Positions 4,891 through 49,095 of a DNA stretch of 64,000 nt are shown here, piece after piece. The position numbers and the translations under genes are program-made. The stretch spans positions 1 to 64,000 of the forward strand of contig DATJAY010000013.1 of NCBI GenBank assembly GCA_035515795.1. The letters run 5' to 3'. The stretch's first letter is position 1, and the number at the start of each line of letters is the position of its first letter. The notes beneath the pieces were generated by a model. The model saw only the letters and a program-made list of their open reading frames with translations, was not told the origin of the DNA and did not search any database. Source of the stretch: Candidatus Acidiferrales bacterium (GTDB lineage: Bacteria; Bacteroidota; Ignavibacteria; Kryptoniales; JAKASW01).

Positions 4891-5825
4891 CAACAGTGTT
4901 TTGTCCGCATTGCGGGACAGAATTGTCGAGTGAATACAATTTTTGCCCGAAATGCGGTACAAAACTTCAATTGGCGAGCAGTCAGCAGCCGGCAATCAGT
5001 CAACCTTCCGTTATTACTTGTCCGACGTGCGGATTTCAAAACCCGGTCGGAAATAAATCGTGCGAATCTTGCGGCTCTTATCTCAAAAGTTCGGAAAGGA
5101 GCCAGTCGGAAATCTCGGGCGTGCCAGTGGCTCCTGTAAATATGCCTGGACCCGAACCACCCCGCTCGGTTGAAGCATCTTCCAGGAATGAAAAGCGCAA
5201 GGAGGTGAAATCGCAAAGTTCAGTGGCGCGATCACAGCAGAAATTTCGTCTCACCACGACACAGGTAGTATCTATCGTAGCCGCCGTACTGCTCGGGTCG
5301 ATATTGGTTTACGGGATCGTGTCCACGAAATCGGTCACTCCGCAGCAGGATAACACGGCAGGTCTGGATGCGCAGCAGCAGGCAACGGCAAACCAGCCGA
5401 GCGCGGATGTGCTCCATGAAATAGATCGTTTGAGGCAAGTGGTCGACAAGAATCCTGATGATCTAGTCTCAACTCTTCGACTCTCCAATATGCTTCAGGA
5501 CAACGGGTTCTACGATCAGGCGGTGGTTTATTACAAAAGATATCTCGCAAAAATTCCCGATAATGTTGATGCGAGAGTCGACTATGGGGTGACGCTTTTC
5601 GAAGGTGGTCATACTCAAGATGCAATCGAGCAGCTGACTCAGGCGCTGAAGATGAACCCGCGACATCAAATAGGTTATTATAATCTGGGCATTGTGTATT
5701 TGAATGCCGGAGAGTTTGACAAGGCGAATGCCGCTTTCAAGAAATGCGTTTCGCTGGATCCGAACAGCGACATCGGAAAAAAAGCTCAGCAAACGCTCGA
5801 ACAACATGCAAACCTAAAAAATTAG
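4887..5825 (+). CDS. Double zinc-ribbon, TPR-containing membrane protein
   Basis: A 312-residue protein of three parts. Two zinc ribbons sit at the N-terminus (Cys6/9/20/23 in CPHCG...CPKCG and Cys45/48/59/62 in CPTCG...CESCG). A Ser/Pro/Lys-rich linker is followed by one membrane helix at about residues 126-145 (VVSIVAAVLLGSILVYGIV). A tetratricopeptide-repeat domain fills about 190-310, with typical YDQAVVYYKRYLAKIPDN and AIEQLTQALKMNPRH units. The ribbons would be cytoplasmic and the TPRs periplasmic if the helix is oriented N-in. It starts with GTG overlapping the HU stop (GTGA) and sits directly before the small basic protein gene. Function unknown; a scaffold role is a guess. Confidence 0.85.
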   Translation: MTTVFCPHCGTELSSEYNFCPKCGTKLQLASSQQPAISQPSVITCPTCGFQNPVGNKSCESCGSYLKSSERSQSEISGVPVAPVNMPGPEPPRSVEASSRNEKRKEVKSQSSVARSQQKFRLTTTQVVSIVAAVLLGSILVYGIVSTKSVTPQQDNTAGLDAQQQATANQPSADVLHEIDRLRQVVDKNPDDLVSTLRLSNMLQDNGFYDQAVVYYKRYLAKIPDNVDARVDYGVTLFEGGHTQDAIEQLTQALKMNPRHQIGYYNLGIVYLNAGEFDKANAAFKKCVSLDPNSDIGKKAQQTLEQHANLKN

Positions 5826-5841
5826 GAGGTGATGTAATATG
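5823..5841 (+). promoter_or_regulatory. Very strong Shine-Dalgarno of the small basic protein
   Basis: AGGAGGTGAT is a ten-base uninterrupted match to the usual anti-Shine-Dalgarno end of 16S rRNA, ending six bases before the ATG at 5839. It begins inside the TAG stop of the preceding gene. It is the best ribosome binding site I noticed in the window and decides the start of the small gene. Confidence 0.85.
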
Positions 5842-5934
5842 CCGAGTGGTAAAAAGAGGAAACGTCACAAGATGGCAACTCACAAGCGCAAAAAACGTCT
5901 CCGCAAGATGCGTCACAAGAAAAAGATTCGTTAG
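5839..5934 (+). CDS. AURKAIP1/COX24-domain small basic protein (31 aa)
   Basis: A 31-residue protein beginning MPSGKKRKRHKMATHKRKK and ending in RHKKKIR, with more than half of its residues Lys, Arg or His. It matches the small bacterial proteins annotated as AURKAIP1/COX24 domain, whose mitochondrial relative is ribosomal protein mS38. Composition and the ideal Shine-Dalgarno suggest an abundant rRNA-binding protein, probably a ribosome component; this is inference. It lies 13 bases after the zinc-ribbon/TPR gene and is probably co-transcribed with it. It is too short for most automatic gene callers. Confidence 0.8.
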   Translation: MPSGKKRKRHKMATHKRKKRLRKMRHKKKIR

Positions 5935-6021
5935 TCAATTCAATATTCAAGCTGCGGTCCGCCGAAAATACTTGGCGGACTTGCAGATCTGATAATTCAT
6001 AACTAACTGGCTTAGGTTTCA

Positions 6022-6909
6022 ATGAGAACTTTCAAACGAGTTTCACTATTCATTTTTGTCTCAACATGTTTGATATTAGTATCCCAAGCTGCTTTCGGCT
6101 GGGGATTCTGGGCGCACAAAGTCATCAACAGGGAAGCTGCTGCCTTACTTCCGGAACCGTTGAAAGGTTTCTATGAGAAGAACCTCGACTACGTTGCCGA
6201 ACACGCATCGGATCCGGACCTTCGGAGGGACTTCGACAAGAGCGAAGGTTATCGTCATTACATCGACATCGATCGTTACGGCTCATATCCTAATTTTGAC
6301 GTTCCGCATTCTTATGAAGATGCCGTGAAAAAATACGGCGAGACCACTGTGATAAAAAATGGCACGGTGCCATGGACGGTCGGATTGGCGGTTGATAGTC
6401 TCGCAGCGGCGATGAAGACGGGAAATATCCCGCTGGTGCTTCATCTCTCGGCCGATCTCGGCCACTACGTCGGTGACATGAACGTGCCGTTGCATGTGAC
6501 TCAAAATTATGACGGGCAGATGACGGGCAATATCGGGGTTCACGCGAGATGGGAGAGCGGGATTCCGGAACACTTCGGTGAGAAATATGATTTTGCAGGA
6601 ATCGACAGTGTGTTCTATATTAAGAATCCGGTTGAGCATGCGTTTGAAATCCTGAATCACAGTTATTCATTGATCGATAGAATTTTCAGAGCCGACAGCA
6701 TGGCAAAAATCGGGATTCCGCGCGATTCGCTCTACCGCGTGGAGGAAAAAGATGGTCGAAAAGCATATATTTATTCCGAGCGCTATTACGACAAATTCAA
6801 TATAGAACTGGATGGTATGGTAGAATCACAGATGAGACGAGCGACAAGAGAAGTGGCCTCATACTGGTACACAGCCTGGGTGAACGCAGGTAAACCTAAA
6901 TTTTGGTGA
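6022..6909 (+). CDS. Secreted zinc-dependent phospholipase C / S1-P1 nuclease family protein
   Basis: A 295-residue exported hydrolase. Residues 1-26 are a signal peptide; cleavage after AAFG leaves Trp27 at the N-terminus with His32 five residues on. That is the W-x4-H arrangement in which the amino group of Trp1 and His6 bind zinc in P1 nuclease and in phospholipase C. Further metal-ligand motifs are YRHYIDID, LGHYVGDMNVPLH and GVHARWES, the last two matching the H-F-x-G-D-x-x-Q-P-L-H and H-x-x-W signatures of the superfamily. Substrate (phospholipid or nucleic acid) cannot be decided. The stop at 6907-6909 lies just ahead of the trpB2 start. Confidence 0.85.
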   Translation: MRTFKRVSLFIFVSTCLILVSQAAFGWGFWAHKVINREAAALLPEPLKGFYEKNLDYVAEHASDPDLRRDFDKSEGYRHYIDIDRYGSYPNFDVPHSYEDAVKKYGETTVIKNGTVPWTVGLAVDSLAAAMKTGNIPLVLHLSADLGHYVGDMNVPLHVTQNYDGQMTGNIGVHARWESGIPEHFGEKYDFAGIDSVFYIKNPVEHAFEILNHSYSLIDRIFRADSMAKIGIPRDSLYRVEEKDGRKAYIYSERYYDKFNIELDGMVESQMRRATREVASYWYTAWVNAGKPKFW

Positions 6910-6920
6910 GAAATATTTCA

Positions 6921-8309
6921 ATGAAATCGAAGCAAGTTCAAAACCGAATTTATTTGACAGAAAAAGAAATACCGAAGAAATGGTATAACATTACATTTAA
7001 CTTGAAGGAGAAACTTCTTCCGCCTCTCGATCCACAGACGCGTCAGCCCATAGGGCCGGATAAGCTGGCGGCAATTTTCCCGCAGAGACTGATCGAGCAG
7101 GAAGTCTACGACAAGCAATTCTTGAAAATTCCGGAGGATATTCTGAAGATTTATTTGAAGTGGCGTCCGACTCCGCTTGTTCGGGCCACGAGACTCGAGG
7201 AGATGCTCGAGACGACGGCGCACATTTATTACAAGAATGAGTCGGTTAGTCCGGCGGGAAGCCATAAGCCTAACACAGCTGTCGCGCAGGCGTACTACAA
7301 CAAGCTCGAAGGTGTCAAGCGTCTTGCTACCGAGACCGGCGCGGGTCAGTGGGGAAGTGCGCTTGCATTGGCGTGCAATTATTTTGATCTCGGGTGTAAA
7401 GTCTTCATGGTCAAATCATCGTACGACCAGAAGCCTTATCGTCGCAGCATGATGCAGCTCTGGGGAGCGGAAGTTACACCGAGTCCCAGCGAAGAGACGA
7501 AGTCCGGCAAGGAATTACTCGAAAGAGATCCGAACTCACCCGGCAGCCTCGGGATGGCCATCAGCGAGGCGGTTGAAGTGGCTGCGAGCGACCCCGATAC
7601 GAAATATTCTTTGGGAAGTGTTTTGAACCATGTTCTTCTTCACCAGACGATCATAGGCGAAGAGACGATCAAACAGCTGGAGAAAATCGGAGAATTCCCG
7701 AATATTATAATCGGATGTGTGGGAGGGGGATCAAATTTCGGAGGGTTTTCATTCCCGTTCATACGCGAAATTCTGGAAGAGAAACCGCGTGCCAAGAAGA
7801 TGAAAGTGATCGCAGTTGAGCCTGCCGCCTGTCCCACGATGACGCGCGGGGTTTTTACTTATGACTATGGCGACACCGTCGGTCTGACGCCGCTTCTTCC
7901 TATGCACACGCTCGGGCACGATTTTGTGCCTCCTGCGATTCACGCAGGCGGATTGAGGTATCATGGTGTATCGCCGCTCATATCCGCGCTGGTGAACCAG
8001 AAAATAATTCACCCGGTTTCATATTCTCAAAATGAAGTCTTCGATGCTGCCGTGAAATTTGCAAGGAGCGAAGGCATAGTACCTGCACCTGAATCGTCGC
8101 ACGCGATCCGCGCAACGATCGACGAGGCTTTACGCGCAAAGTCCGAAGGAAAAGAAGAAGTCATAGTTTTCAATTTGTCCGGTCACGGTCACTTTGACAT
8201 GAGCGCCTACGACGCTTACCTGCAGGGGCGGCTCGAGGATACTTCTCTCGATGAAGATGAGCTTCAGAAGTATTTGAGTCAGCTGAAGCATCAAGGGATC
8301 GCTGATTGA
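6921..8309 (+). CDS. trpB2: TrpB2-type tryptophan synthase beta subunit
   Basis: A 462-residue PLP enzyme of the TrpB2 class, longer than the roughly 400 residues of TrpB1. The PLP lysine is Lys116 in SPAGSHKPNTA, the phosphate-binding loop is CVGGGSNFGG, and the C-terminal serine motif is FNLSGHGHFD. TrpB2 condenses indole (or a related nucleophile) with serine or phosphoserine, often without a TrpA partner; no trpA is nearby, in keeping with that. The start is the ATG at 6921 (MKSKQVQNRIYL), just inside an in-frame TTG/GTG extension that overlaps the previous gene. No leader peptide or attenuator is seen. Confidence 0.93.
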   Translation: MKSKQVQNRIYLTEKEIPKKWYNITFNLKEKLLPPLDPQTRQPIGPDKLAAIFPQRLIEQEVYDKQFLKIPEDILKIYLKWRPTPLVRATRLEEMLETTAHIYYKNESVSPAGSHKPNTAVAQAYYNKLEGVKRLATETGAGQWGSALALACNYFDLGCKVFMVKSSYDQKPYRRSMMQLWGAEVTPSPSEETKSGKELLERDPNSPGSLGMAISEAVEVAASDPDTKYSLGSVLNHVLLHQTIIGEETIKQLEKIGEFPNIIIGCVGGGSNFGGFSFPFIREILEEKPRAKKMKVIAVEPAACPTMTRGVFTYDYGDTVGLTPLLPMHTLGHDFVPPAIHAGGLRYHGVSPLISALVNQKIIHPVSYSQNEVFDAAVKFARSEGIVPAPESSHAIRATIDEALRAKSEGKEEVIVFNLSGHGHFDMSAYDAYLQGRLEDTSLDEDELQKYLSQLKHQGIAD

Positions 8310-8535
8310 ATATGGTTGGCACTGGTTCTCTGCGATTTCTTGATCGAAGATAACGAATTCTGAACAGACCGGACGTTAGCCGATAGAAAGAGATAGTTCG
8401 GGCAGACTTGTTCAGCCTCGGTTGCGAAGATCATTTGAATCACTTTGCAGCAAGTTTTTGCGTTATCGGTCTTCTTGATTTTTACTCTATGCGTTGATAA
8501 CTTAAAAAAGCGTTTAAAATAATGGGAGGTATATC

Positions 8536-8916
8536 ATGGCACACGACGACAACGGTTTGACCAAGGGTTTGTTGCTCGGCTTTATCGCGGGAGGCGTGAT
8601 CGGGGCAGTGACCGCGTTACTGCTTGCGCCTAAGTCCGGAAAGGAACTTCGACAGGATATCAAAAAGAAAACAGACGAACTGAAAGAGGTTGCTCAAAAT
8701 CAGCTCCAACAGGCGCGTGAAAAAGCCGGCGATCTTGTAAATGAGGGGAGAAAGCGCTCCGAAGAAATGATAAGCCAGGCAAAACAGCGAGCGGAGACTC
8801 TGCTGTCCGATGCCGAAAAAGTCATCGATCAGGCAAAGGGCGAAGGGAGCAAGCTGAAAGCAGCTTTCAAAGCCGGCGCGGATGCTTTTCGCGAAGAGAG
8901 AAACAAAAATAGTTAA
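8536..8916 (+). CDS. YtxH domain-containing protein
   Basis: A 126-residue protein with a glycine-rich N-terminal membrane segment (GLLLGFIAGGVIGAVTALLLAPKSGKELR, residues about 12-40). A long amphipathic helix rich in Lys, Glu and Gln follows (DIKKKTDELKEVAQNQ onward), the layout of the YtxH/general-stress family. A GGGAGGT ribosome binding site precedes the ATG. The next gene encodes a DUF948 protein, as in the Bacillus ytxGH pair, where both are under general-stress control. Function is unknown; a role at the cell envelope under stress is inferred. Confidence 0.85.
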   Translation: MAHDDNGLTKGLLLGFIAGGVIGAVTALLLAPKSGKELRQDIKKKTDELKEVAQNQLQQAREKAGDLVNEGRKRSEEMISQAKQRAETLLSDAEKVIDQAKGEGSKLKAAFKAGADAFREERNKNS

Positions 8917-8927
8917 AAGGCGGCGAC

Positions 8928-9311
8928 ATGACATTTGTTTATATAGCGGCTTCGATTGCTTTACTGTCATTCGCAGCCGCGAGCATCTACATGATAGTTC
9001 TCATGAAGGACGCCAAGCAAGTGCTCAATCAGGTAGAGGCTTCGGTCAAAGAAATATCCGATAAATCTGGCCCCCTTCTCGAGAATTCCGGAGTCATCAC
9101 GGGAAAAATCAGAGAGATTGCCGAGAACGTCGACGGTGAAGTCACAAGTCTGAAGGGGGCTATGGATTCACTCGTCGGTGCAGTCGATGACCTTGTCGAG
9201 TTTGAGCGAAAAATCAAATCGAAAATCGAAGGACCAATCTTAGACACCGCGGGCATTGTTGCAGGAATTACAAGAGGAATAAGAACTTTCCTGCGGGTAC
9301 TTAAAAGTTAA
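8928..9311 (+). CDS. DUF948 (YtxG-like) membrane protein
   Basis: A 127-residue protein with one N-terminal membrane helix (FVYIAASIALLSFAAASIYMIV). It continues as a long, heptad-rich helical region (KDAKQVLNQVEASVKEI, then IREIAENVDGEVTSLKGAM) typical of DUF948, and ends GIRTFLRVLKS. It starts 12 bases after the YtxH gene with an AAGGCGG ribosome binding site, so the two form an operon. The pairing of YtxH and DUF948 proteins is conserved in distant phyla. Biochemical function is unknown. Confidence 0.82.
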   Translation: MTFVYIAASIALLSFAAASIYMIVLMKDAKQVLNQVEASVKEISDKSGPLLENSGVITGKIREIAENVDGEVTSLKGAMDSLVGAVDDLVEFERKIKSKIEGPILDTAGIVAGITRGIRTFLRVLKS

Positions 9312-9386
9312 TATTATAAGCCGAACGAAAATTGCATCCTGTGAAGTTCGGCTTCCCTGACTTCTTGTTCGGCAAAAGGAGATTCT

Positions 9387-11483
9387 ATGAAGGAGTATCT
9401 TTCATCAAATATAAGAAATGTTGCCCTGGTAGGCCATGGCGCTGCAGGCAAGACCACCTTCGCGGAGGCTGTGCTTTATGCGGCCGGCGTCACGAGCCGG
9501 ATGGGTTCAATCGCTGAAGGGAACACGGTTTCAGATTACAACCACGATGAGATTGAAAAGAAAATCTCGATAAGCACGTCGCTTCTTCATGTTGAATGGC
9601 GGGATTTGAAGTTTAATATAGTTGACCCGCCAGGCTACCCGGATTTCCTGGGTGAAGTGAAAGCGGCTTTAAGAGTTTCCGACGCTGCCCTGATTTTCGT
9701 CAAAGCCGTCGAAGGTATTGAGGTCGGGACGGAAATCGATTGGGGATTTACCAAGGAATATAAAAACCCGTCGATCTTTGTCATCAATAAAGTAGATGCC
9801 GAACACTCAAGCTTCAAAAAGGTTTTTCAGCAGATTCGGGATAAATTAACCCACGATGCCGCAGTGGTACAATTCCCGGCGAACGAGGGATTGACTGCAG
9901 ACAGCGTGGTTGATGTTTTGAAATTGAAGCTGTTAAAGTTTGATCGAAACGCAAAGGGGAAGTTTACCGAGAGTGAAATTCCGGGTACTCTGAAAACTGA
10001 GGCGGAAAAATATCGCGAGGAGCTGATCGAGCAGCTTTCTGAAACGGATGAGGAATTGCTGAATACCTTTCTAGAAAAGGGTGAACTTACTGAAGAACAA
10101 ATATTGTCGGGGTTGAGGAAGGCAATTGCAGAGCGAAAGATTTTTCCCGTGTTCGCGGTTGCAGGCCAGCAGCTCGTTGGTGTAGCTTCGATTCTCGATT
10201 TCCTGGCTGATTACGCTCCTTCGCCTGATGTCGTGCCGCAGAGTATTGCGTATAAGGCGGGAAATTCTAAAGAGGAAGTGAAAGTTCCATGCAGCCCCGG
10301 CGGCGACACCGCACTTTTTACATTCAAGACAATTTCTGAGCGCAACATAGGTGAGCTTTCTTTGTTCAGAGTATATTCGGGAATAGTCATGCCGGGTATG
10401 GATCTGGTGAATCAAACGAATGGAAAGAGCGAACGGCTCGGAACGTTGTACGTGCTGAACGGAAAAGATCGGAAAGAAATTTCGAAAGTAATAGCCGGTG
10501 ATATCGCTGCGGTTGTCAAGCTGAAGGATACCCACACCAACAATACGCTTAGCAGCAAGAATTTTCCAGTAGTGCTGAAAAAAATAGAATTTCCTGAGCC
10601 GATAATGCGCGTGGCAATCGTCTCCAAGAACAGGCATGACGAGGACAAAGTCGCTTCAGGACTGCACGCGCTTCACGAAGAAGATCCCACGTTTCTCATT
10701 GAAGTCGATCCTGAATTGAGCCAGACTGTTCTTAGCGGACAGGGTGAGACGCATTTACAGGTCGTGACCAAGCGGCTCAAAGAGCGCTATGGCGTCGATG
10801 TCGACATGGTCGAACCGGATATCCCTTACCGCGAGACTATCAAAGGTTCCATCCCCGACTCTGAATACAAACATAAGAAGCAATCGGGCGGACGCGGCCA
10901 GTACGGTCACGTACATTTAAAGATAGAGCATCTGCCGCGCGGCGGCGGATTCGAGTTCGTCGATGCGATTGTGGGTGGAGTTGTGCCGGGAAGGTTTGTT
11001 CCCGCCGTTGAGAAAGGTGTCGTTGAGGCAATGGAGCGCGGCGTGGTGTCGGGTCATAAAGTTGTCGACGTAAAAGTGACTTTGTTTGACGGGACATATC
11101 ATACCGTAGACTCGGATGAGGTCTCTTTCAAGATAGCCGGTTCGATGGCATTCAGAAAAGGCTTCAAGGAAGCCAAACCGATCCTCTTGGAACCAATTTA
11201 TGAACTCGAAGTGGTCGTGCCGGATGAGCATATGGGAGACATAATGGGCGACATCTCCGGCAGGCGCGGGAAGATCATGGGAATGGAAGCGGAAGGAAGT
11301 AATCAAAAGGTTCGTGCACAGGTTCCGCTGAAAGAGCTGTACAAATACGCGAACGTGGTGAGAAGCATGACTCAGGGACGCGGCGTCTTCAAGCAGAAAT
11401 TCTCCCACTATGAAGAAGTTCCGAAAGAGGTTGCCGAGAAGATTATCTCCGAAGCACAAAAGGACAAAGTAGAACAAGAGTAA
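9387..11483 (+). CDS. EF-G-like translational GTPase (EF-G2 class)
   Basis: A 698-residue protein with the five-domain plan of elongation factor G. The P-loop is GHGAAGKTT (16-24) where canonical EF-G has GHIDAGKTT. The G3 motif is DPPGY, with proline for threonine and tyrosine in place of the catalytic histidine, and G4 is NKVD. Domains III-V follow (GETHLQVVTKRLKERYGV, SGGRGQYGHV and ISGRRGKIMGMEAEG). A tyrosine in G3 is, as I recall, common in the EF-G2/EF-G-like subfamily, which is distinct from the main translocase and may act as a slow or specialised GTPase. It stands alone, without rpsL, rpsG or tuf, again unlike fusA. Confidence 0.9.
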   Translation: MKEYLSSNIRNVALVGHGAAGKTTFAEAVLYAAGVTSRMGSIAEGNTVSDYNHDEIEKKISISTSLLHVEWRDLKFNIVDPPGYPDFLGEVKAALRVSDAALIFVKAVEGIEVGTEIDWGFTKEYKNPSIFVINKVDAEHSSFKKVFQQIRDKLTHDAAVVQFPANEGLTADSVVDVLKLKLLKFDRNAKGKFTESEIPGTLKTEAEKYREELIEQLSETDEELLNTFLEKGELTEEQILSGLRKAIAERKIFPVFAVAGQQLVGVASILDFLADYAPSPDVVPQSIAYKAGNSKEEVKVPCSPGGDTALFTFKTISERNIGELSLFRVYSGIVMPGMDLVNQTNGKSERLGTLYVLNGKDRKEISKVIAGDIAAVVKLKDTHTNNTLSSKNFPVVLKKIEFPEPIMRVAIVSKNRHDEDKVASGLHALHEEDPTFLIEVDPELSQTVLSGQGETHLQVVTKRLKERYGVDVDMVEPDIPYRETIKGSIPDSEYKHKKQSGGRGQYGHVHLKIEHLPRGGGFEFVDAIVGGVVPGRFVPAVEKGVVEAMERGVVSGHKVVDVKVTLFDGTYHTVDSDEVSFKIAGSMAFRKGFKEAKPILLEPIYELEVVVPDEHMGDIMGDISGRRGKIMGMEAEGSNQKVRAQVPLKELYKYANVVRSMTQGRGVFKQKFSHYEEVPKEVAEKIISEAQKDKVEQE

Positions 11484-38290: not shown

Positions 38291-39979
38291 ATGTCAATCA
38301 AGTATCAATTCGAAGCCGGGAATCATCGGAAAACATTTTTTGAAGGCCTGAAGCAAATCGCGGGATCAAAATTCCTCGAACGCCTGTGGAAGAAGGATGG
38401 TTCGCTGTGGTCGGACGATCCGGCACATCATGCCGTCGCCCTGAACAGACTGGGATGGCTCGGTCTTCCTTCCGGAATGAAGAGGGAAGCCGGACAACTC
38501 GAAGAGTTTGCGTCAACGAAAGCCTTCCGGAAATTCAAGCACGTAGTCCATCTTGGAATGGGTGGAAGCAGCCTCGCGCCGGAAGTTTTCTTCAGGACGT
38601 TCGGCAATGCCGCGGATTTTCCTGAACTCATCGTCCTTGATTCGACGGATCCCGATCAGATAGACGACGTGCTGAATGCCATCGAGCTCGACGCGACCCT
38701 GTTTATCGTTGCATCGAAATCCGGTTCAACGATCGAGACCTCTTCGCTCGCGAAATTCTTTTACGATCGGCTCACCCGGTTAAAGCCGGCAACTGCTCAT
38801 GAACACTTTATAGCCATTACCGATCCGGGCACGGTTCTTCAGGATGAGGCTGAGAAAAAGTACAGCAGGGCTTTTCTGAATCCTCCCGACATCGGCGGAA
38901 GATATTCGGCACTGAGCTTCTTCGGACTTGTACCGTTTGCCTTGCTTGGAAAAGACGTGTCGAGGTTTCTCGAGAAGGCAGAAGAACAAGAGAGAGCGTG
39001 TGCCATGGATGCACCTGTGGAATCGTGCGATGCCGTCAAGCTGGGTGCCTTTCTGGGAAAGCTCGCAGATTCCGGAATCAACAAGATGACGCTTCAGACG
39101 AGTCGTTCTCTCTCCACGGTCGGCTGGTGGATCGAGCAGCTCGTCGCAGAGAGTACCGGTAAGGAAGGAAAGGGAATTCTTCCTGTCAACGGCGAAGAGA
39201 TAACTGCTTCTAATTTGTATTCATCGGATAGAGTCTTCGTTTATATGAAGGTTCAGGGCGATATCGATCTCGACAAGGAAGAGAAATTGAATGCGCTGAG
39301 ACTCAACGGATTTCCAGTGGTTGTTGTTGAGATGGATGATCTTTATGACTTAAGCGGACTTTTCTATGACTGGGAGATCGCGACAGCGGCGGCAGCTTCT
39401 ATAATTCGCATCGATCCATTCGACGAGCCGAATGTAAAGGAAAGCAAAGACAACACGAGGCGGGTGCTGGATGACTATAAGTCAACAGGCAAAATGGAAT
39501 TTGATTCGTCACCGATCGCCGATGGAGAAACAAAAATTTACGGGAACGTCGCGGTTGCAGGAGATACAATCGGGGTTTTGAATAGCCTCTTCGCCGGAAG
39601 AAAGCCGGGAGATTATCTTGCTGTCATGGCATATCTTCCCAGAAGGAGCAAGGTTGAAGAGTTTCTCGTGAGACTCCAGGCTTCGCTGCGTGACAGGCTG
39701 CGGATTCCGGTGACGATCGGATTTGGTCCGCGGTTTCTTCACTCGACCGGGCAGTTCCATAAAGGCGGCACAAAGAACGGACTCTTTCTGCAATTCGTCC
39801 ATGAACCTCGAAAGGATTTTGAGATCCCGGGAGAAAATTATTCATTCAAGAGTTTGTTCCGCGCTCAGGCAATCGGGGATTATGTTTCTCTGAAGTCTAA
39901 GCAGAAACCGGTAGTGTCAGTGGAATTGAACGGAGATCCTGTCGTCCAGCTCGAGGAAATTTTCAAAAAGGTAGTCTAG
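38291..39979 (+). CDS. pgi: Glucose-6-phosphate isomerase, type found in transaldolase-PGI fusions
   Basis: A 562-residue isomerase with two SIS domains: VVHLGMGGSSLAPEVFFR then IVASKSGSTIETSSLAKFF in the first and the C-terminal TIGFGPRFLHSTGQFHKGG with the catalytic region. The N-terminal ALNRLGWL-type lead-in and length match the PGI half of bifunctional transaldolase/phosphoglucose isomerases, from memory of the family, yet no transaldolase domain is attached and the upstream 130 bases do not code for one. It interconverts glucose-6-phosphate and fructose-6-phosphate, feeding transketolase encoded just upstream. Confidence 0.9.
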   Translation: MSIKYQFEAGNHRKTFFEGLKQIAGSKFLERLWKKDGSLWSDDPAHHAVALNRLGWLGLPSGMKREAGQLEEFASTKAFRKFKHVVHLGMGGSSLAPEVFFRTFGNAADFPELIVLDSTDPDQIDDVLNAIELDATLFIVASKSGSTIETSSLAKFFYDRLTRLKPATAHEHFIAITDPGTVLQDEAEKKYSRAFLNPPDIGGRYSALSFFGLVPFALLGKDVSRFLEKAEEQERACAMDAPVESCDAVKLGAFLGKLADSGINKMTLQTSRSLSTVGWWIEQLVAESTGKEGKGILPVNGEEITASNLYSSDRVFVYMKVQGDIDLDKEEKLNALRLNGFPVVVVEMDDLYDLSGLFYDWEIATAAAASIIRIDPFDEPNVKESKDNTRRVLDDYKSTGKMEFDSSPIADGETKIYGNVAVAGDTIGVLNSLFAGRKPGDYLAVMAYLPRRSKVEEFLVRLQASLRDRLRIPVTIGFGPRFLHSTGQFHKGGTKNGLFLQFVHEPRKDFEIPGENYSFKSLFRAQAIGDYVSLKSKQKPVVSVELNGDPVVQLEEIFKKVV

Positions 39980-40044: not shown

Positions 40045-41559
40045 TTAGAGAAATATGAGCGGGAACGTGACCGCTCCTGCAACGCTCGCGGCAAAGTTCA
40101 CCACGTCATTATTAATCCATCTGTATCCCCGGACTAACACTGTCTCCTGATTGCCGCAATGCTTCCTGCGTTCAGTGATCTTGTCACAGACTGTGCATCT
40201 GTATTGCGATTGAATCGTGCCGCCGATCAGGCTGTCTATGAAACTCCCGATCATGCCGCTGACGGCCCCCGCAACGACAAATCGAAGCGGGAACAAAGCG
40301 TAGCTCCCTGCAACCGGCAACGTCAATGATGCTAACACTGCTGCCGATGCCATTCCTGTAAAAGTGCCCAGAGAGGAGACTCCGCCTGAAATTCCTTTCT
40401 CAACTCTTTTCCAGGTCGGGATCGAAAACGGATTGTTGCGCGAGAAGACGCCGATTTCAGTCGCGAGCGTGTCGGCGGTGACGGCAGACAGTGCACCGAG
40501 ATATGCGAGGAACCAATGATAATTCGGAAGAAGGATGCTGCATACCAACATCAACAGAGGAAGGCCGCCGTTCGCAAATACTTGTGCCGAATCGCGCTGG
40601 TGACTTTTCTCATAGAGCAAATTGTAATTTACTTTCTGTTTCGAAAACATTTTTGAGGCTACGCTGCCGATGATGAAAAAAAGAAGAATCGGCAAAGACC
40701 ACTGCCACCCGCCGAACCCGAATATGAAACTGCCGAGTATGAACGTCGCAACTGCGCCGTCATTTGAAAGGAGCTTCAGTCTCGCAGATGCGACGGCCAC
40801 GAGGAGTGCAAGAAATTCTCCGACCATGAACGAATCGAATAGAGGCGGAGCGCTTACGGCTATGAAAAGGAGAAGTCCGGACGAAAGCGGAACCGTCAGA
40901 TTGTCCGTCGCTTTCGGCGAGATAAGCTCGATCGCGGCAGCCGTGAGGCCGATGGAAACGGAGATGTTGAGAAGAGTTGTAAGATTTGAAGTTGCCGAAA
41001 TATGGATGCCGAAGAACAAGAGTCCGATCATGATGGCGATGGAGGCGACGATGAACATCCCTGCACTCCCCTCGAATGTTTTTCGCCCGCCGCCCGCCGA
41101 CACCTCATGGGTGTTCTTCAGCGATGAGCCGATTACTGCCGCGGCCGGATCGGCAAGTCCCATCACAAGCATCGCGGTCGATACTATGAATGGATACCTG
41201 TCCCAGACGAGGAGGACAAGAATGAGAAAAGAGAGCGGGTAATAGACCGTGCCGAGGTTCTTCTTGTCGGCATTTATCCCCTTGAACATTCCGAGTTTTA
41301 TCGAAATTAAATTAACTACAACGAATATGGAGGCGAGTAATGCGGGGTACAGTCTTCCCGTGAACAGCCATGGAGCGAAGAAGATGACGACCGCTACGGA
41401 AATGTGGACGAACATACGGGTACTTTTCGAGTCGATCGTGAAGAACTTCCTGGCCAGGTCCGCCGCCACCACGAGAGCAGTTAGACTCGCGAGTATCAAG
41501 AAAAATTTGATGAGCTCACTCACGCTGAAGAAGCTAACTACCGGAGGATGAAGATACAA
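40045..41559 (-). CDS. Fused polyprenol kinase-like (SEC59/VTE5) and DUF92 (VTE6-like) membrane protein
   Basis: A 504-residue membrane protein of two parts. Residues 1-230 resemble the cytidylyltransferase/dolichol-kinase family (GTVYYPLSFLILVLL, MGLADPAAAVIGS, GRKTFEGSAGMF, then a helix with AIELISPKATDNLTVPL). Residues 240-504 match DUF92/TMEM19 (SNDGAVATFILGSFIFGFGG, RDSAQVFANGGLPLLM, TADTLATEIGVFSR, and KGISGGVSSLGTFTG). In plants VTE5 phosphorylates phytol and VTE6, a DUF92 protein, phosphorylates phytyl-phosphate. A single chain with both domains suggests two-step conversion of a polyprenol to its diphosphate; substrate unproven. It is convergent with pgi. Confidence 0.82.
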   Translation of the reverse strand: MYLHPPVVSFFSVSELIKFFLILASLTALVVAADLARKFFTIDSKSTRMFVHISVAVVIFFAPWLFTGRLYPALLASIFVVVNLISIKLGMFKGINADKKNLGTVYYPLSFLILVLLVWDRYPFIVSTAMLVMGLADPAAAVIGSSLKNTHEVSAGGGRKTFEGSAGMFIVASIAIMIGLLFFGIHISATSNLTTLLNISVSIGLTAAAIELISPKATDNLTVPLSSGLLLFIAVSAPPLFDSFMVGEFLALLVAVASARLKLLSNDGAVATFILGSFIFGFGGWQWSLPILLFFIIGSVASKMFSKQKVNYNLLYEKSHQRDSAQVFANGGLPLLMLVCSILLPNYHWFLAYLGALSAVTADTLATEIGVFSRNNPFSIPTWKRVEKGISGGVSSLGTFTGMASAAVLASLTLPVAGSYALFPLRFVVAGAVSGMIGSFIDSLIGGTIQSQYRCTVCDKITERRKHCGNQETVLVRGYRWINNDVVNFAASVAGAVTFPLIFL

Positions 41560-41800: not shown

Positions 41801-41923
41801 ATGACCGCAGTCGTGCACAGCGAAAATGTTCGGGAGTGTGTCAGAGTAAGAACGATTGCTCTCTCGTCCTCTATTGAATCCCGACTCAATTATTCCAGCA
41901 AAAAATTCACGGGTGTGCCATGA
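41801..41923 (+). CDS. Small leader ORF (40 aa) ending in the next start codon
   Basis: From the ATG at 41801 an open frame of 40 codons (MTAVVHSENVRECV to KKFTGVP) ends in a TGA that overlaps the ATG of the T9SS cargo gene (ATGA). A GGAGG precedes its ATG but with no spacer, which is too close for normal initiation. Whether it is translated is unknown; if it is, the overlap could couple the two genes. The sequence matches no family I know and may be fortuitous. Confidence 0.3.
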   Translation: MTAVVHSENVRECVRVRTIALSSSIESRLNYSSKKFTGVP

Positions 41924-43203
41924 AAAGAATCGCAAGATCTATTTTCTGCTTATTCATAATTATGATTCCTTCTCACCATGCAAACGCACAATGGAGCTTT
42001 GTAACCGGCTCCTGGGACTCTTATAATACACAAGGGTGTTTGAGCCTCGCAGTCGTCGGCAACACGATCCTTGCGGGGACATGGGTGGACACCGTCGTTT
42101 ACCTATCAAACGACAGCGGAGCGACCTGGACTAAAAGCGCTGCAAATGCTCAATGCACCATGAGGTTTCTTGTCGTACCCGGGACAAACCCCGTAAAAGT
42201 CCTTGCGGCAACCTATGGCGGCGGGATTTTTGCTTCCACCGACACGGGAAAGACCTGGACTCCGGCAGACAGCGGCCTTGGGAGACCCCACGCTGATCCA
42301 CAGACGTGGGTCATTGATTTTGCAATCCACGGAAATTTTATATTCGCGGCTACATTAGACGGCATGTTTCGCTCATCTGACAAGGGAGTGAGTTGGACCG
42401 GGGTAAACATAGGCATACCTGCATGGAGTCAATTACGATGTCTCTATGTCTATGGCGACAAGATTTTTGCCGGATCTGATAATTATACCGATTATGAGTC
42501 CACCGATGACGGCGACGATTGGTCCACTGTCGATACGAGCAGAGGTTTGGCAAATGGCAGAGTTGTTAAAGGATTTACTTCTGTTGGGAGTCATCTTTTT
42601 GCCGGCTCAAATGGAAGCGGCGTCTTCGCTTCCACCGACAGCGGAGCTACCTGGACTGCTGTCAATAACGGAATTCCAATAGGTTGGGAAGATGTATTTT
42701 GCGTGTGGACGAACGGAACAACAGTCTATGCCGGGACCGTCCTCTTCATTTATCAGACAACGGATTACGGAAAAACATGGACAATGGTGGATACAACGGG
42801 ATGGAACGGTTCTTCTCAAGTTGAGTGCTCCGTGAATTGTGGAAAATATGTCCTTGTAGGCACATTAGGAGGAATTTTGCGACGCCAGATGTCGCAAGTT
42901 TATACGGCGGTCGATTCAAAATCAGCTGTCGAAATTCCAAAGGATTATTCTCTTGAGCAGAACTATCCAAACCCTTTTAATCCTTCGACCACTATAACAT
43001 ACAAACTGCCGGTCGCTAGCCCAGTGACAATGAAGCTTTACGATGCGTTAGGCAGGTTGGTCGGAACATTGGTCGATGAGCGCCAGAATGCCGGTGACCA
43101 TTCTGTGAAATTTGACGGGTCAAATCTGCCAAGTGGAGTATACTTCTGCAGACTTGAAGCTGGAGTGTTCCATGATACCAAGAAACTTCTCTTGCTTAAA
43201 TGA
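41920..43203 (+). CDS. Secreted Asp-box/beta-propeller protein with T9SS type A sorting domain
   Basis: A 427-residue exported protein. Residues 1-23 form a signal peptide (FCLFIIMIPSHHANA). The body holds a series of BNR/Asp-box repeats of the S-x-D-x-G-x-T-W type (LSNDSGATWT, STDTGKTWT, SSDKGVSWT, STDSGATWT, TTDYGKTWT), forming a beta-propeller as in sialidase-like or photosystem-assembly proteins. The last 80 residues are a T9SS type A sorting domain (LEQNYPNPFNPSTTITYKLP to KKLLLLK), which directs export across the outer membrane by the type IX system and is then usually removed. The ligand or substrate is unknown. It has its own strong promoter. Confidence 0.92.
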   Translation: MKRIARSIFCLFIIMIPSHHANAQWSFVTGSWDSYNTQGCLSLAVVGNTILAGTWVDTVVYLSNDSGATWTKSAANAQCTMRFLVVPGTNPVKVLAATYGGGIFASTDTGKTWTPADSGLGRPHADPQTWVIDFAIHGNFIFAATLDGMFRSSDKGVSWTGVNIGIPAWSQLRCLYVYGDKIFAGSDNYTDYESTDDGDDWSTVDTSRGLANGRVVKGFTSVGSHLFAGSNGSGVFASTDSGATWTAVNNGIPIGWEDVFCVWTNGTTVYAGTVLFIYQTTDYGKTWTMVDTTGWNGSSQVECSVNCGKYVLVGTLGGILRRQMSQVYTAVDSKSAVEIPKDYSLEQNYPNPFNPSTTITYKLPVASPVTMKLYDALGRLVGTLVDERQNAGDHSVKFDGSNLPSGVYFCRLEAGVFHDTKKLLLLK

Positions 43204-47796: not shown

Positions 47797-48017
47797 CGTT
47801 ACACATGATGGTCGATTTACCGGTCGACCGATGTTGCTTACCGAGTTTCTGTTCTTGGCCTTGTTGAGGATAAAATGAAATCGTTCAGGTGTGTATCAGT
47901 GGAACGTGTAGGTGAAGCCCCGACGCGGTTTTTAGACAAGTTTGAAACTCTTTTTATTAAATCTTAATTTATTTTCCCCGAGGGAATCTCTTCGGGATGA
48001 GAAAAACAGGAGGAAAA

Positions 48018-48491
48018 ATGTCAGTCGAGATTGGAAATAAAGCCCCCGACTTTAAGCTTTATGATACCGATAGAAAAGAGAGGAGTCTCTCGGAATTTGC
48101 AGGGAAGAAAGTGGTGCTCGCGTTTTATCCGGGCGCCTTTACCGGAGTCTGCACAAAAGAACTATGTAACTTTCGAGATTCGTTGAGCAAATTCAACAAC
48201 GTAAGCGCGCAGGTGGTTGGGATCAGCGTCGACCCGCCGTTTTCCAACAAGGCATTTGCTGACCAGAACAAATTGAATTTCCCGATCCTGTCGGATTTTA
48301 ACCGGCAGGTAGTCAAAACTTATGACGCGTACCATGAAAACTTTGCCGGCCTGAACGGCTACACGGCCGCGAAGAGATCGGTGTTCGTTCTCGACAAGAA
48401 TGGGATTGTAAGATACAAATGGGTTTCAGATAACCCCACTGTCGAGCCAAATTACGACGAAGTTCTTAAGTCGGTGGAATCCATGAAATGA
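48018..48491 (+). CDS. Peroxiredoxin (AhpE-like)
   Basis: A 157-residue thiol peroxidase: the peroxidatic cysteine is Cys45 in PGAFTGVCTKELC with a second cysteine at 50, and the strand-helix pattern IGNKAPDFKLYDTD is typical. Its GLNGYTAAKRSVFVLDKNGIV and the F-T-x-V-C-x-x-E-L-C motif fit the AhpE subgroup. It reduces peroxides with thioredoxin-type donors. The start is the ATG at 48018, eight bases after AGGAGG. A second peroxiredoxin of a different class follows about 110 bases later. Confidence 0.92.
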   Translation: MSVEIGNKAPDFKLYDTDRKERSLSEFAGKKVVLAFYPGAFTGVCTKELCNFRDSLSKFNNVSAQVVGISVDPPFSNKAFADQNKLNFPILSDFNRQVVKTYDAYHENFAGLNGYTAAKRSVFVLDKNGIVRYKWVSDNPTVEPNYDEVLKSVESMK

Positions 48492-48600
48492 GCGAGATGC
48501 ATTACGCAACATCTTACAAGATATCATTACGTCAGAACGACAAAAGAGGCATTTTGAAGTCATGACCTGGAAACTAATCTGAGGGAGGAGGATCAAAAAG

Positions 48601-49095
48601 ATGGCTAAAGCTACCAAGACATCGACGAAGAAAACTAGGAGTACCTTGGACCTTGGGAACAAAGCTCCGGATTTCTCTCTAAAAAACGACAATGGCGAGC
48701 CTGTAAAACTTTCGAATTACAAAGGCAAAAAAATTGTCTTATATTTTTATCCGAAGGATGATACACCCGGATGCACGGCAGAAGCCTGTTCATTCAGAGA
48801 TGGAATATCTGAGATCCAGAAGAAAGGCGCCGTCATTTTTGGAGTCAGTACCGACTCCGTTGAATCCCATAAAAAATTTAAGGAGAAGTATCATCTGAAC
48901 TTCCCGCTCCTGAGCGATGTCGACAAAAAGGTCGTCAACGCATACGGTGTGTGGAAAGAAAAAAATATGTACGGGAAAAAATATATGGGAATCGAGCGAA
49001 CGACGTTCGTAATTGATGAAGAAGGCAATATCAAGAGAGTATTCCCGAAAGTGAAAGTGGAAGGGCATTACGACGAAGTTCTGGCTGAGCTCTAA
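48601..49095 (+). CDS. bcp: Thioredoxin-dependent peroxiredoxin BCP/PrxQ
   Basis: A 164-residue peroxiredoxin. The peroxidatic Cys58 and the resolving Cys63 are in KDDTPGCTAEACSFRD, the hallmark of PrxQ/BCP, and IGVSTDSVESHKKF-like FGVSTDSVESHKKF follows. The first 14 residues (MAKATKTSTKKTRS) are a basic extension beyond the usual family start; GGGAGG at 48583-48591 supports this ATG. It presumably acts alongside the AhpE-like gene upstream in peroxide defence. Confidence 0.94.
   Translation: MAKATKTSTKKTRSTLDLGNKAPDFSLKNDNGEPVKLSNYKGKKIVLYFYPKDDTPGCTAEACSFRDGISEIQKKGAVIFGVSTDSVESHKKFKEKYHLNFPLLSDVDKKVVNAYGVWKEKNMYGKKYMGIERTTFVIDEEGNIKRVFPKVKVEGHYDEVLAEL

Follow-up and report, generated by a model that had tools for sequence, protein, structure and literature searches.

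A single gene from a Candidatus Acidiferrales bacterium encodes a SEC59/VTE5-like domain joined to a DUF92 domain, and its product is probably a bifunctional CTP-dependent prenol kinase and prenyl-phosphate kinase, the best explanation of the evidence, in which we infer both activity and substrate. The gene lies in the first 64,000 nucleotides of contig DATJAY010000013.1 (assembly GCA_035515795.1), the whole stretch of DNA that was analyzed and that we call the window. The protein would be a polytopic inner-membrane enzyme of two tandem CTP-transferase-superfamily domains. Its N-half (SEC59/VTE5-like) would convert a free prenol and CTP to the monophosphate, and its C-half (DUF92/VTE6-like) would add a second phosphate to give a prenyl diphosphate, which could then re-enter isoprenoid metabolism toward ether lipids, menaquinone, or longer prenyls. 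The monophosphate may be passed from one site to the other, with CTP use, kinase activity, and the order of the steps likewise predicted, and the favored substrate would be a C15-C20 prenol. This two-step role from prenol to diphosphate had been proposed in a first-pass annotation of the window; the pairing of VTE5-like and VTE6-like domains, each with invariant residues, agrees with it and leaves the role as the best inference.

The minus strand of positions 40045 to 41559 is a single intact open frame of 504 codons with its stop at 40045, and the plus strand of the same interval holds many stops. As first reported, the frame began at a TTG at 41559; comparison with relatives favors a GTG at 41523, 12 codons inside that frame, because the frames of two relatives (L034 and L009) have no earlier start. 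The fusion gene is therefore placed at 40045..41523 on the minus strand and encodes 492 aa. Neighbors on both sides are on the plus strand (38291 to 39979, phosphoglucose-isomerase-like, and 41920 to 43203, secreted-protein-like; product names of these and other flanking genes are our readings of their sequences), so the fusion gene is alone on its strand here, and no operon pointing to isoprenoids surrounds it within the window. Across relatives, the genes adjoining the fusion look like housekeeping genes and vary between phyla: an enolase-like gene follows it at four KSB1/Calditrichota loci, and at Ignavibacteria-like loci a lone DUF92 gene is often upstream of two long genes. Elsewhere in the window, two tandem genes that we read as peroxiredoxin-like (47997 to 49095) cluster together by sequence and are found again close to the fusion at several loci of the same genus, and a UbiA-family protein at about 352 to 1323 falls near decaprenyl-phosphate phosphoribosyltransferase (NCBIfam NF008977, 253 bits versus a cutoff of 234).

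On its sequence, the C-half (residues 226 to 492; 40048..40848, minus strand; delimited by PF01940, model, and conservation) is beyond doubt a DUF92/COG1836 domain of the VTE6 family, as the first-pass annotation had held. PF01940 matches residues 250 to 496 of the 504-aa frame over profile positions 2 to 251 of 251 (E = 3.5e-63; 213.7 bits versus a cutoff of 27.5), and it matches all 41 aligned fusions. The NCBIfam model of a DUF92 subgroup, TIGR00297, also matches all 41 fusion members at E ≤ 1; its curated cutoff was missed by the window protein (136 bits versus 205.85), and we therefore file the protein as DUF92 and not as TIGR00297. Residues R310, Q314, N318, D351, T352, T355, E356, G377, G380, D430, S431, Q438, N472, D473, V475, and N476 do not vary among the 41 aligned fusions, and when lone DUF92 proteins are added (68 rows), D473, T352, T355, E356, and S431 are each conserved in at least 90%. 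The loop joining the final two helices (residues 437 to 471; 40111..40215, minus strand) carries a zinc-knuckle-like CxxC...HC motif, with C443, C446, H455, and C456 (about 40156 to 40197) each present in 40 of 41 fusions. This loop may bind zinc; the motif has no counterpart in either of the two green sulfur bacterial fusions looked at, making it a possible site of zinc binding gained or lost. Modeled alone, the C-half reached a pLDDT of 93.2, and Foldseek placed CdsA at ranks 1 and 2 (E = 0.21 and 0.31). The five best VIA rows include CarS (5guf, Z = 6.6), a TRIC channel (Z = 6.6), and CdsA (4q2e and 4q2g, Z = 5.8 and 5.7); with TRIC channels scoring near CarS and CdsA, the fold match of this half is suggestive. 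A PDB sequence search with the C-half profile returned zinc fingers only.

The N-half (residues 1 to 225; 40849..41523, minus strand) is SEC59/VTE5-like and of the CTP-transferase superfamily, and profiles, motifs, and the model together group it with SEC59/VTE5 and CdsA despite its divergence from PF01148. The window protein had no match to PF01148 (CTP_transf_1; curated cutoff, 24 bits) even at E ≤ 1, and a Pfam and NCBIfam search with the single N-half likewise gave no match. At E ≤ 1, 2 of 41 fusions matched PF01148 (best, 0.0016); in the larger set of N-halves and lone relatives, 28 of 61 did so at E ≤ 0.1 (best, 6.3e-5). Because the cutoff was missed, we name the N-half SEC59-like and not a PF01148 member. 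An HMM built from the 41 N-halves recovered 20 lone SEC59-like genes (E = 4e-36 to 2e-10) and brought 23 of 31 CdsA genes over the inclusion threshold (best, 4e-8), and hhalign aligned the N-half with the lone SEC59-like set at 99.6% probability (E = 8.9e-24) and with CdsA at 95.2% (E = 2.6e-8). A domain search, which had been suggested as a check on this half, thus gave a divided answer: homology to SEC59-like genes and CdsA at the level of profiles, and a single sequence that stays under the Pfam threshold for PF01148.

Conservation within the N-half follows the same families. Invariant in all 41 aligned fusions are R36, H40, G91, D125, A128, G132, K148, G152, E199, D207, N208, and P212; with the lone SEC59-like set included, R36, H40, G91, D125, G132, G152, E199, D207, and P212 stay the same in all 61 sequences, and A129, K148, and N208 are present in at least 90% of the 61. 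We take the motifs of the SEC59/VTE5 group (COG0170) to be R..H, D, K...G, E, and DN...P, all of which the N-half matches. In the profile alignment, D125 stands opposite a conserved CdsA aspartate (D-S-A-A-Y in the CdsA of the window's own genome), and K148-T-F-E-G stands opposite K-T-W-E-G. The first-pass reading depended on an N-half of the SEC59 family with its conserved residues in place, and the hhalign result and the residues shared by all 61 sequences uphold that assignment. An AlphaFold2 model of the whole protein reached a pLDDT of 89.6 and a pTM of 0.89. For residues 43 to 225 of this model, the best domain-length match was CdsA (4q2g; first among the 990 chains compared, with Z = 8.7 and an rmsd of 4.8 over 164 residues), with a designed helical cage at Z = 8.4, so that such a Z alone does not fix a helical fold. 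Foldseek with the whole-protein model found nothing at E ≤ 0.001 and had CdsA at rank 5 (E = 0.27), and a PDB sequence search with the N-half profile reached CdsA at E = 0.1 to 0.3. Structure prediction of both halves, the other check originally proposed, gave confident models with CdsA among the matches, at scores that alone do not settle the fold.

Judging from the models, the two halves look like one eight-helix fold repeated. Eight helices per half were counted in two models (with the long helix 254 to 292 split and short pieces omitted), and D125/D351, a short hairpin, E199/D430, and D207/D473 occupy matching places across the halves. Likeness between DUF92 and PF01148 has already been found by HHpred (PMC5898192). 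In our comparison of the N-half with the C-half, the profile score of 33.5 exceeded 60 of 60 block-shuffles (maximum, 25.4) and the reversed control (22.7), with an hhalign probability of 34.8% and an E of 4e-4 for a single comparison; profiles of lone SEC59-like and DUF92 proteins also scored above their reversed controls (28.8 versus 17.6 and 27.5 versus 19.2). CdsA showed no gain over the reversed control against lone DUF92 (24.5 each) and scored 21.8 versus 18.7 against the fused C-half, and the homology of the C-half therefore rests on the profile controls, the modest fold matches, and the HHpred comparison in PMC5898192. An even number of helices would place both halves in the same orientation. 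Over the 41 fusions, the loops of one face hold a mean of 28.7 lysines and arginines in sum and those of the opposite face 4.1. In the models, D207 and D473 sit at helix ends on the positive face, which also carries the zinc-knuckle-like loop and the hairpins. That face, with both predicted active sites, is presumably cytosolic.

Among the window genome and 40 relatives, 24 of 41 carry a full fusion and 7 a lone DUF92, a label also given to G039, whose DUF92 match is split in two between contigs. One genome (G006) has a broken fragment, and the other 9 have none of these. With identical loci counted once, 41 distinct fusions could be aligned over their full length; the alignment omits L052 (cut at a contig end) and the fragments L028 and L081 and keeps L013, which is cut near its C terminus. 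Recurrence in 24 of 41 close genomes and in 41 aligned fusions rules out chance joining and an assembly artifact as the source of the fusion, and the original observation that one protein joins both domains is borne out by a continuous frame retained among close relatives. The relatives carrying fusions come from bins assigned to Candidatus Kryptoniota, Calditrichota, KSB1, Neomarinimicrobiota, and Ignavibacteria and from Bacteroidetes-labeled bins. In the broken copy, from the same genus as the window (G006:C17:22600-23347), the first 134 and the last 101 fusion residues lie 43 bases apart in different frames, which may reflect either deletion or misassembly.

DUF92 was found in 211 of 392 genomes of the phylum. 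Among the best 150 of these 211 matches, 114 have open frames of at least 450 aa, the length taken as fused in the phylum count, and 36 have frames under 350 aa. Of 30 loci fetched, 29 have a frame of at least 450 aa, all 29 with the N-half, and the thirtieth is a lone 282-aa frame. The FMO protein was present in 11 of 25 genomes tested, which are all from families f30, f32, and f45 and comprise every tested member of those families, identifying them as green sulfur bacteria; the window's own genome was negative. All 11 FMO-positive genomes, which were picked from DUF92-positive ones, have DUF92 in a long frame. In a Spirochaetales MAG (L079), the two halves are separate ORFs (7917 to 8609 and 8606 to 9460) that overlap by 4 bases and keep the order of the fusion, preceded by an argininosuccinate-synthase-like gene. 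An 81-row tree of DUF92, whose bootstrap had not settled, has 8 switches between the fused and lone labels, at least 3 of them forced by well-supported branches. A separate lone SEC59-like gene is present in 40 of the 41 close genomes, the exception being G033 (88% complete). In the window's own genome it is L114 (about 5477 to 6145; G000:C20:106515-107144), which falls outside the 20-gene set used above because its common-start frame is under 150 aa. With this gene nearly universal and lone DUF92 in 7 of 41, the fused N-half is not the sole possible first kinase.

The fusion architecture is unsurprising, having been described from archaea and being frequent across the wider bacterial group. 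Plant VTE5 and VTE6 are encoded by separate genes. The plant and cyanobacterial pair shares both domain types with the fusion, and the two proteins are thought to act successively, a likeness drawn by family assignment and not from plant sequences; DUF92 was also found in Synechococcus elongatus, used as a control genome. The VTE5/VTE6 substrate is phytol from chlorophyll, whereas the window genome lacks the FMO protein. VTE5 is described as a phytol kinase and VTE6 as a phytyl-phosphate kinase (PMC9782597, PMC10849223), with CTP preferred and VTE6 likened to COG1836 in the first of these accounts, and another account places COG1836, together with Arabidopsis At1g78620, in phytol-phosphate metabolism and marks it as essential for Synechocystis (PMC3223725). 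For archaea, Makarova et al. (2015; PMC5898192) describe a SEC59-like domain ahead of DUF92 in Methanosarcina barkeri Mbar_A3310, one of the two-domain proteins of arCOG02245, report a uppS neighborhood, and propose a kinase step in isoprenoid biosynthesis, with no assay in that account. Within the literature examined, with subscription papers mostly outside the search, the fusion is described solely there, and no report of kinase activity for a bacterial fusion appeared in the literature searched. The archaeal protein shares with ours an N-terminal SEC59-like domain followed by DUF92/COG1836, the cytidylyltransferase superfamily, and conserved acidic residues; it differs in its archaeal host, and the likeness is by published description and not by sequence. 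The green sulfur bacterial fusions (such as L140 of f30 and L142 of f32) share the architecture, a length of about 525 to 545 aa, and aligned catalytic-type residues, but the CxxC...HC motif is missing from the two looked at, as noted above, and their FMO-bearing hosts have chlorophyll alcohols as the obvious substrate.

Other functions for this domain pair have to be weighed against the two-step kinase. The SEC59 family also contains kinases of other lipids, such as yeast DGK1 and dolichol kinase, and the window's own genome has no DgkA (PF01219), so that the N-half might be a CTP-dependent diacylglycerol or undecaprenol kinase of the DGK1/SEC59 type with DUF92 acting on a different lipid in a step that does not follow on. 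We consider this unlikely: the nearly universal lone SEC59-like gene would fit that kind of housekeeping function better, and fusion of the halves across several phyla, together with their adjacency in the Spirochaetales genome, suggests a shared pathway. It is also quite improbable that DUF92 alone is catalytic, performing one or both phosphorylations beside an N-half reduced to a structural or substrate-binding remnant. The lone DUF92 proteins of close relatives and the repeated switches between fused and lone forms on the tree would make the N-half dispensable, and a suggestion that VTE6 might itself phosphorylate phytol is noted in PMC5694494, yet R36, H40, D125, K148, E199, D207, and N208 are invariant in every aligned fusion, which would be unexpected in a remnant. 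That the protein is a CDP-lipid synthase, with both halves CdsA/CarS-like in fold, can be given very little credence. CdsA and CarS are indeed the top-ranked plausible solved relatives, but the genome already has a clear CdsA (G000:C1:3536-4348, E = 2e-60), and the nearest characterized families (VTE5, VTE6, and dolichol kinase) transfer phosphate.

The window's own genome encodes a MenA together with a UbiA-like polyprenyltransferase that resembles MqnP, each over the curated cutoff of some model. Neither is specific to the fusion, and the menaquinone side chains raised in the first-pass annotation are neither favored nor disfavored as its role. Below cutoffs, the genome also encodes proteins like heme O synthase and geranylgeranylglycerol-phosphate geranylgeranyltransferase; none of its six UbiA-family matches reached the chlorophyll-synthase cutoff. 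GGGP synthase (PF01884) is also encoded (G000:C30:57326-58021), in a neighborhood that was uninformative. Of the 41 close genomes, 21 of the 24 fused ones have GGGP synthase, compared with 2 of the 7 whose DUF92 is alone and 2 of the 9 that lack DUF92; the genome with the fragment has it too. In the phylum count, with green sulfur families f30, f32, and f45 set apart, the synthase is encoded by 36 of 41 fused versus 8 of 34 lone-DUF92 genomes among the best 150 of 211 DUF92 matches, or, by genus within the same 150, in 27 of 31 versus 8 of 23. When labels were permuted within families, this association had a p of 0.009, for which f10 alone is informative (6 of 6 fused versus 1 of 6 lone genera). 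The fused state thus tracks GGGP synthase, a correlation that hints at archaeal-type ether lipids. There are counter-cases, namely, f32 green sulfur genomes that have the fusion but no GGGP synthase and the many GGGP-synthase genomes without DUF92. We also rejected the idea that GGGP synthase simply travels with DUF92: none of the 133 positives is from f32, despite the mostly long frames of that family, and in f36 the synthase occurs with no DUF92.

Archaeal ether-lipid potential has been described in the FCB group (PMC7852524, whose main text does not contain the word DUF92). As a speculative and rather doubtful extension of the kinase reading, the fusion in nonphototrophic FCB bacteria might be a salvage enzyme that feeds geranylgeranyl (or related) diphosphate to archaeal-type glycerol-1-phosphate ether lipids, with the monophosphate handed between the repeats, the fused form kept where GGGP synthase is present, and DUF92 left alone where the synthase was lost.

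A 2022 review counts few known prenol-salvage kinases, from plants and cyanobacteria, and presents the pathway as two independent enzymes (PMC9782597); a malaria prenol kinase was added in 2024 (PMC10849223). The widespread bacterial fusion makes the pairing of SEC59-like and DUF92 domains concrete and offers, in a single gene, a test bed for the two-step pathway. If the link to GGGP synthase is true, it would tie prenol salvage to archaea-like lipids in bacteria.
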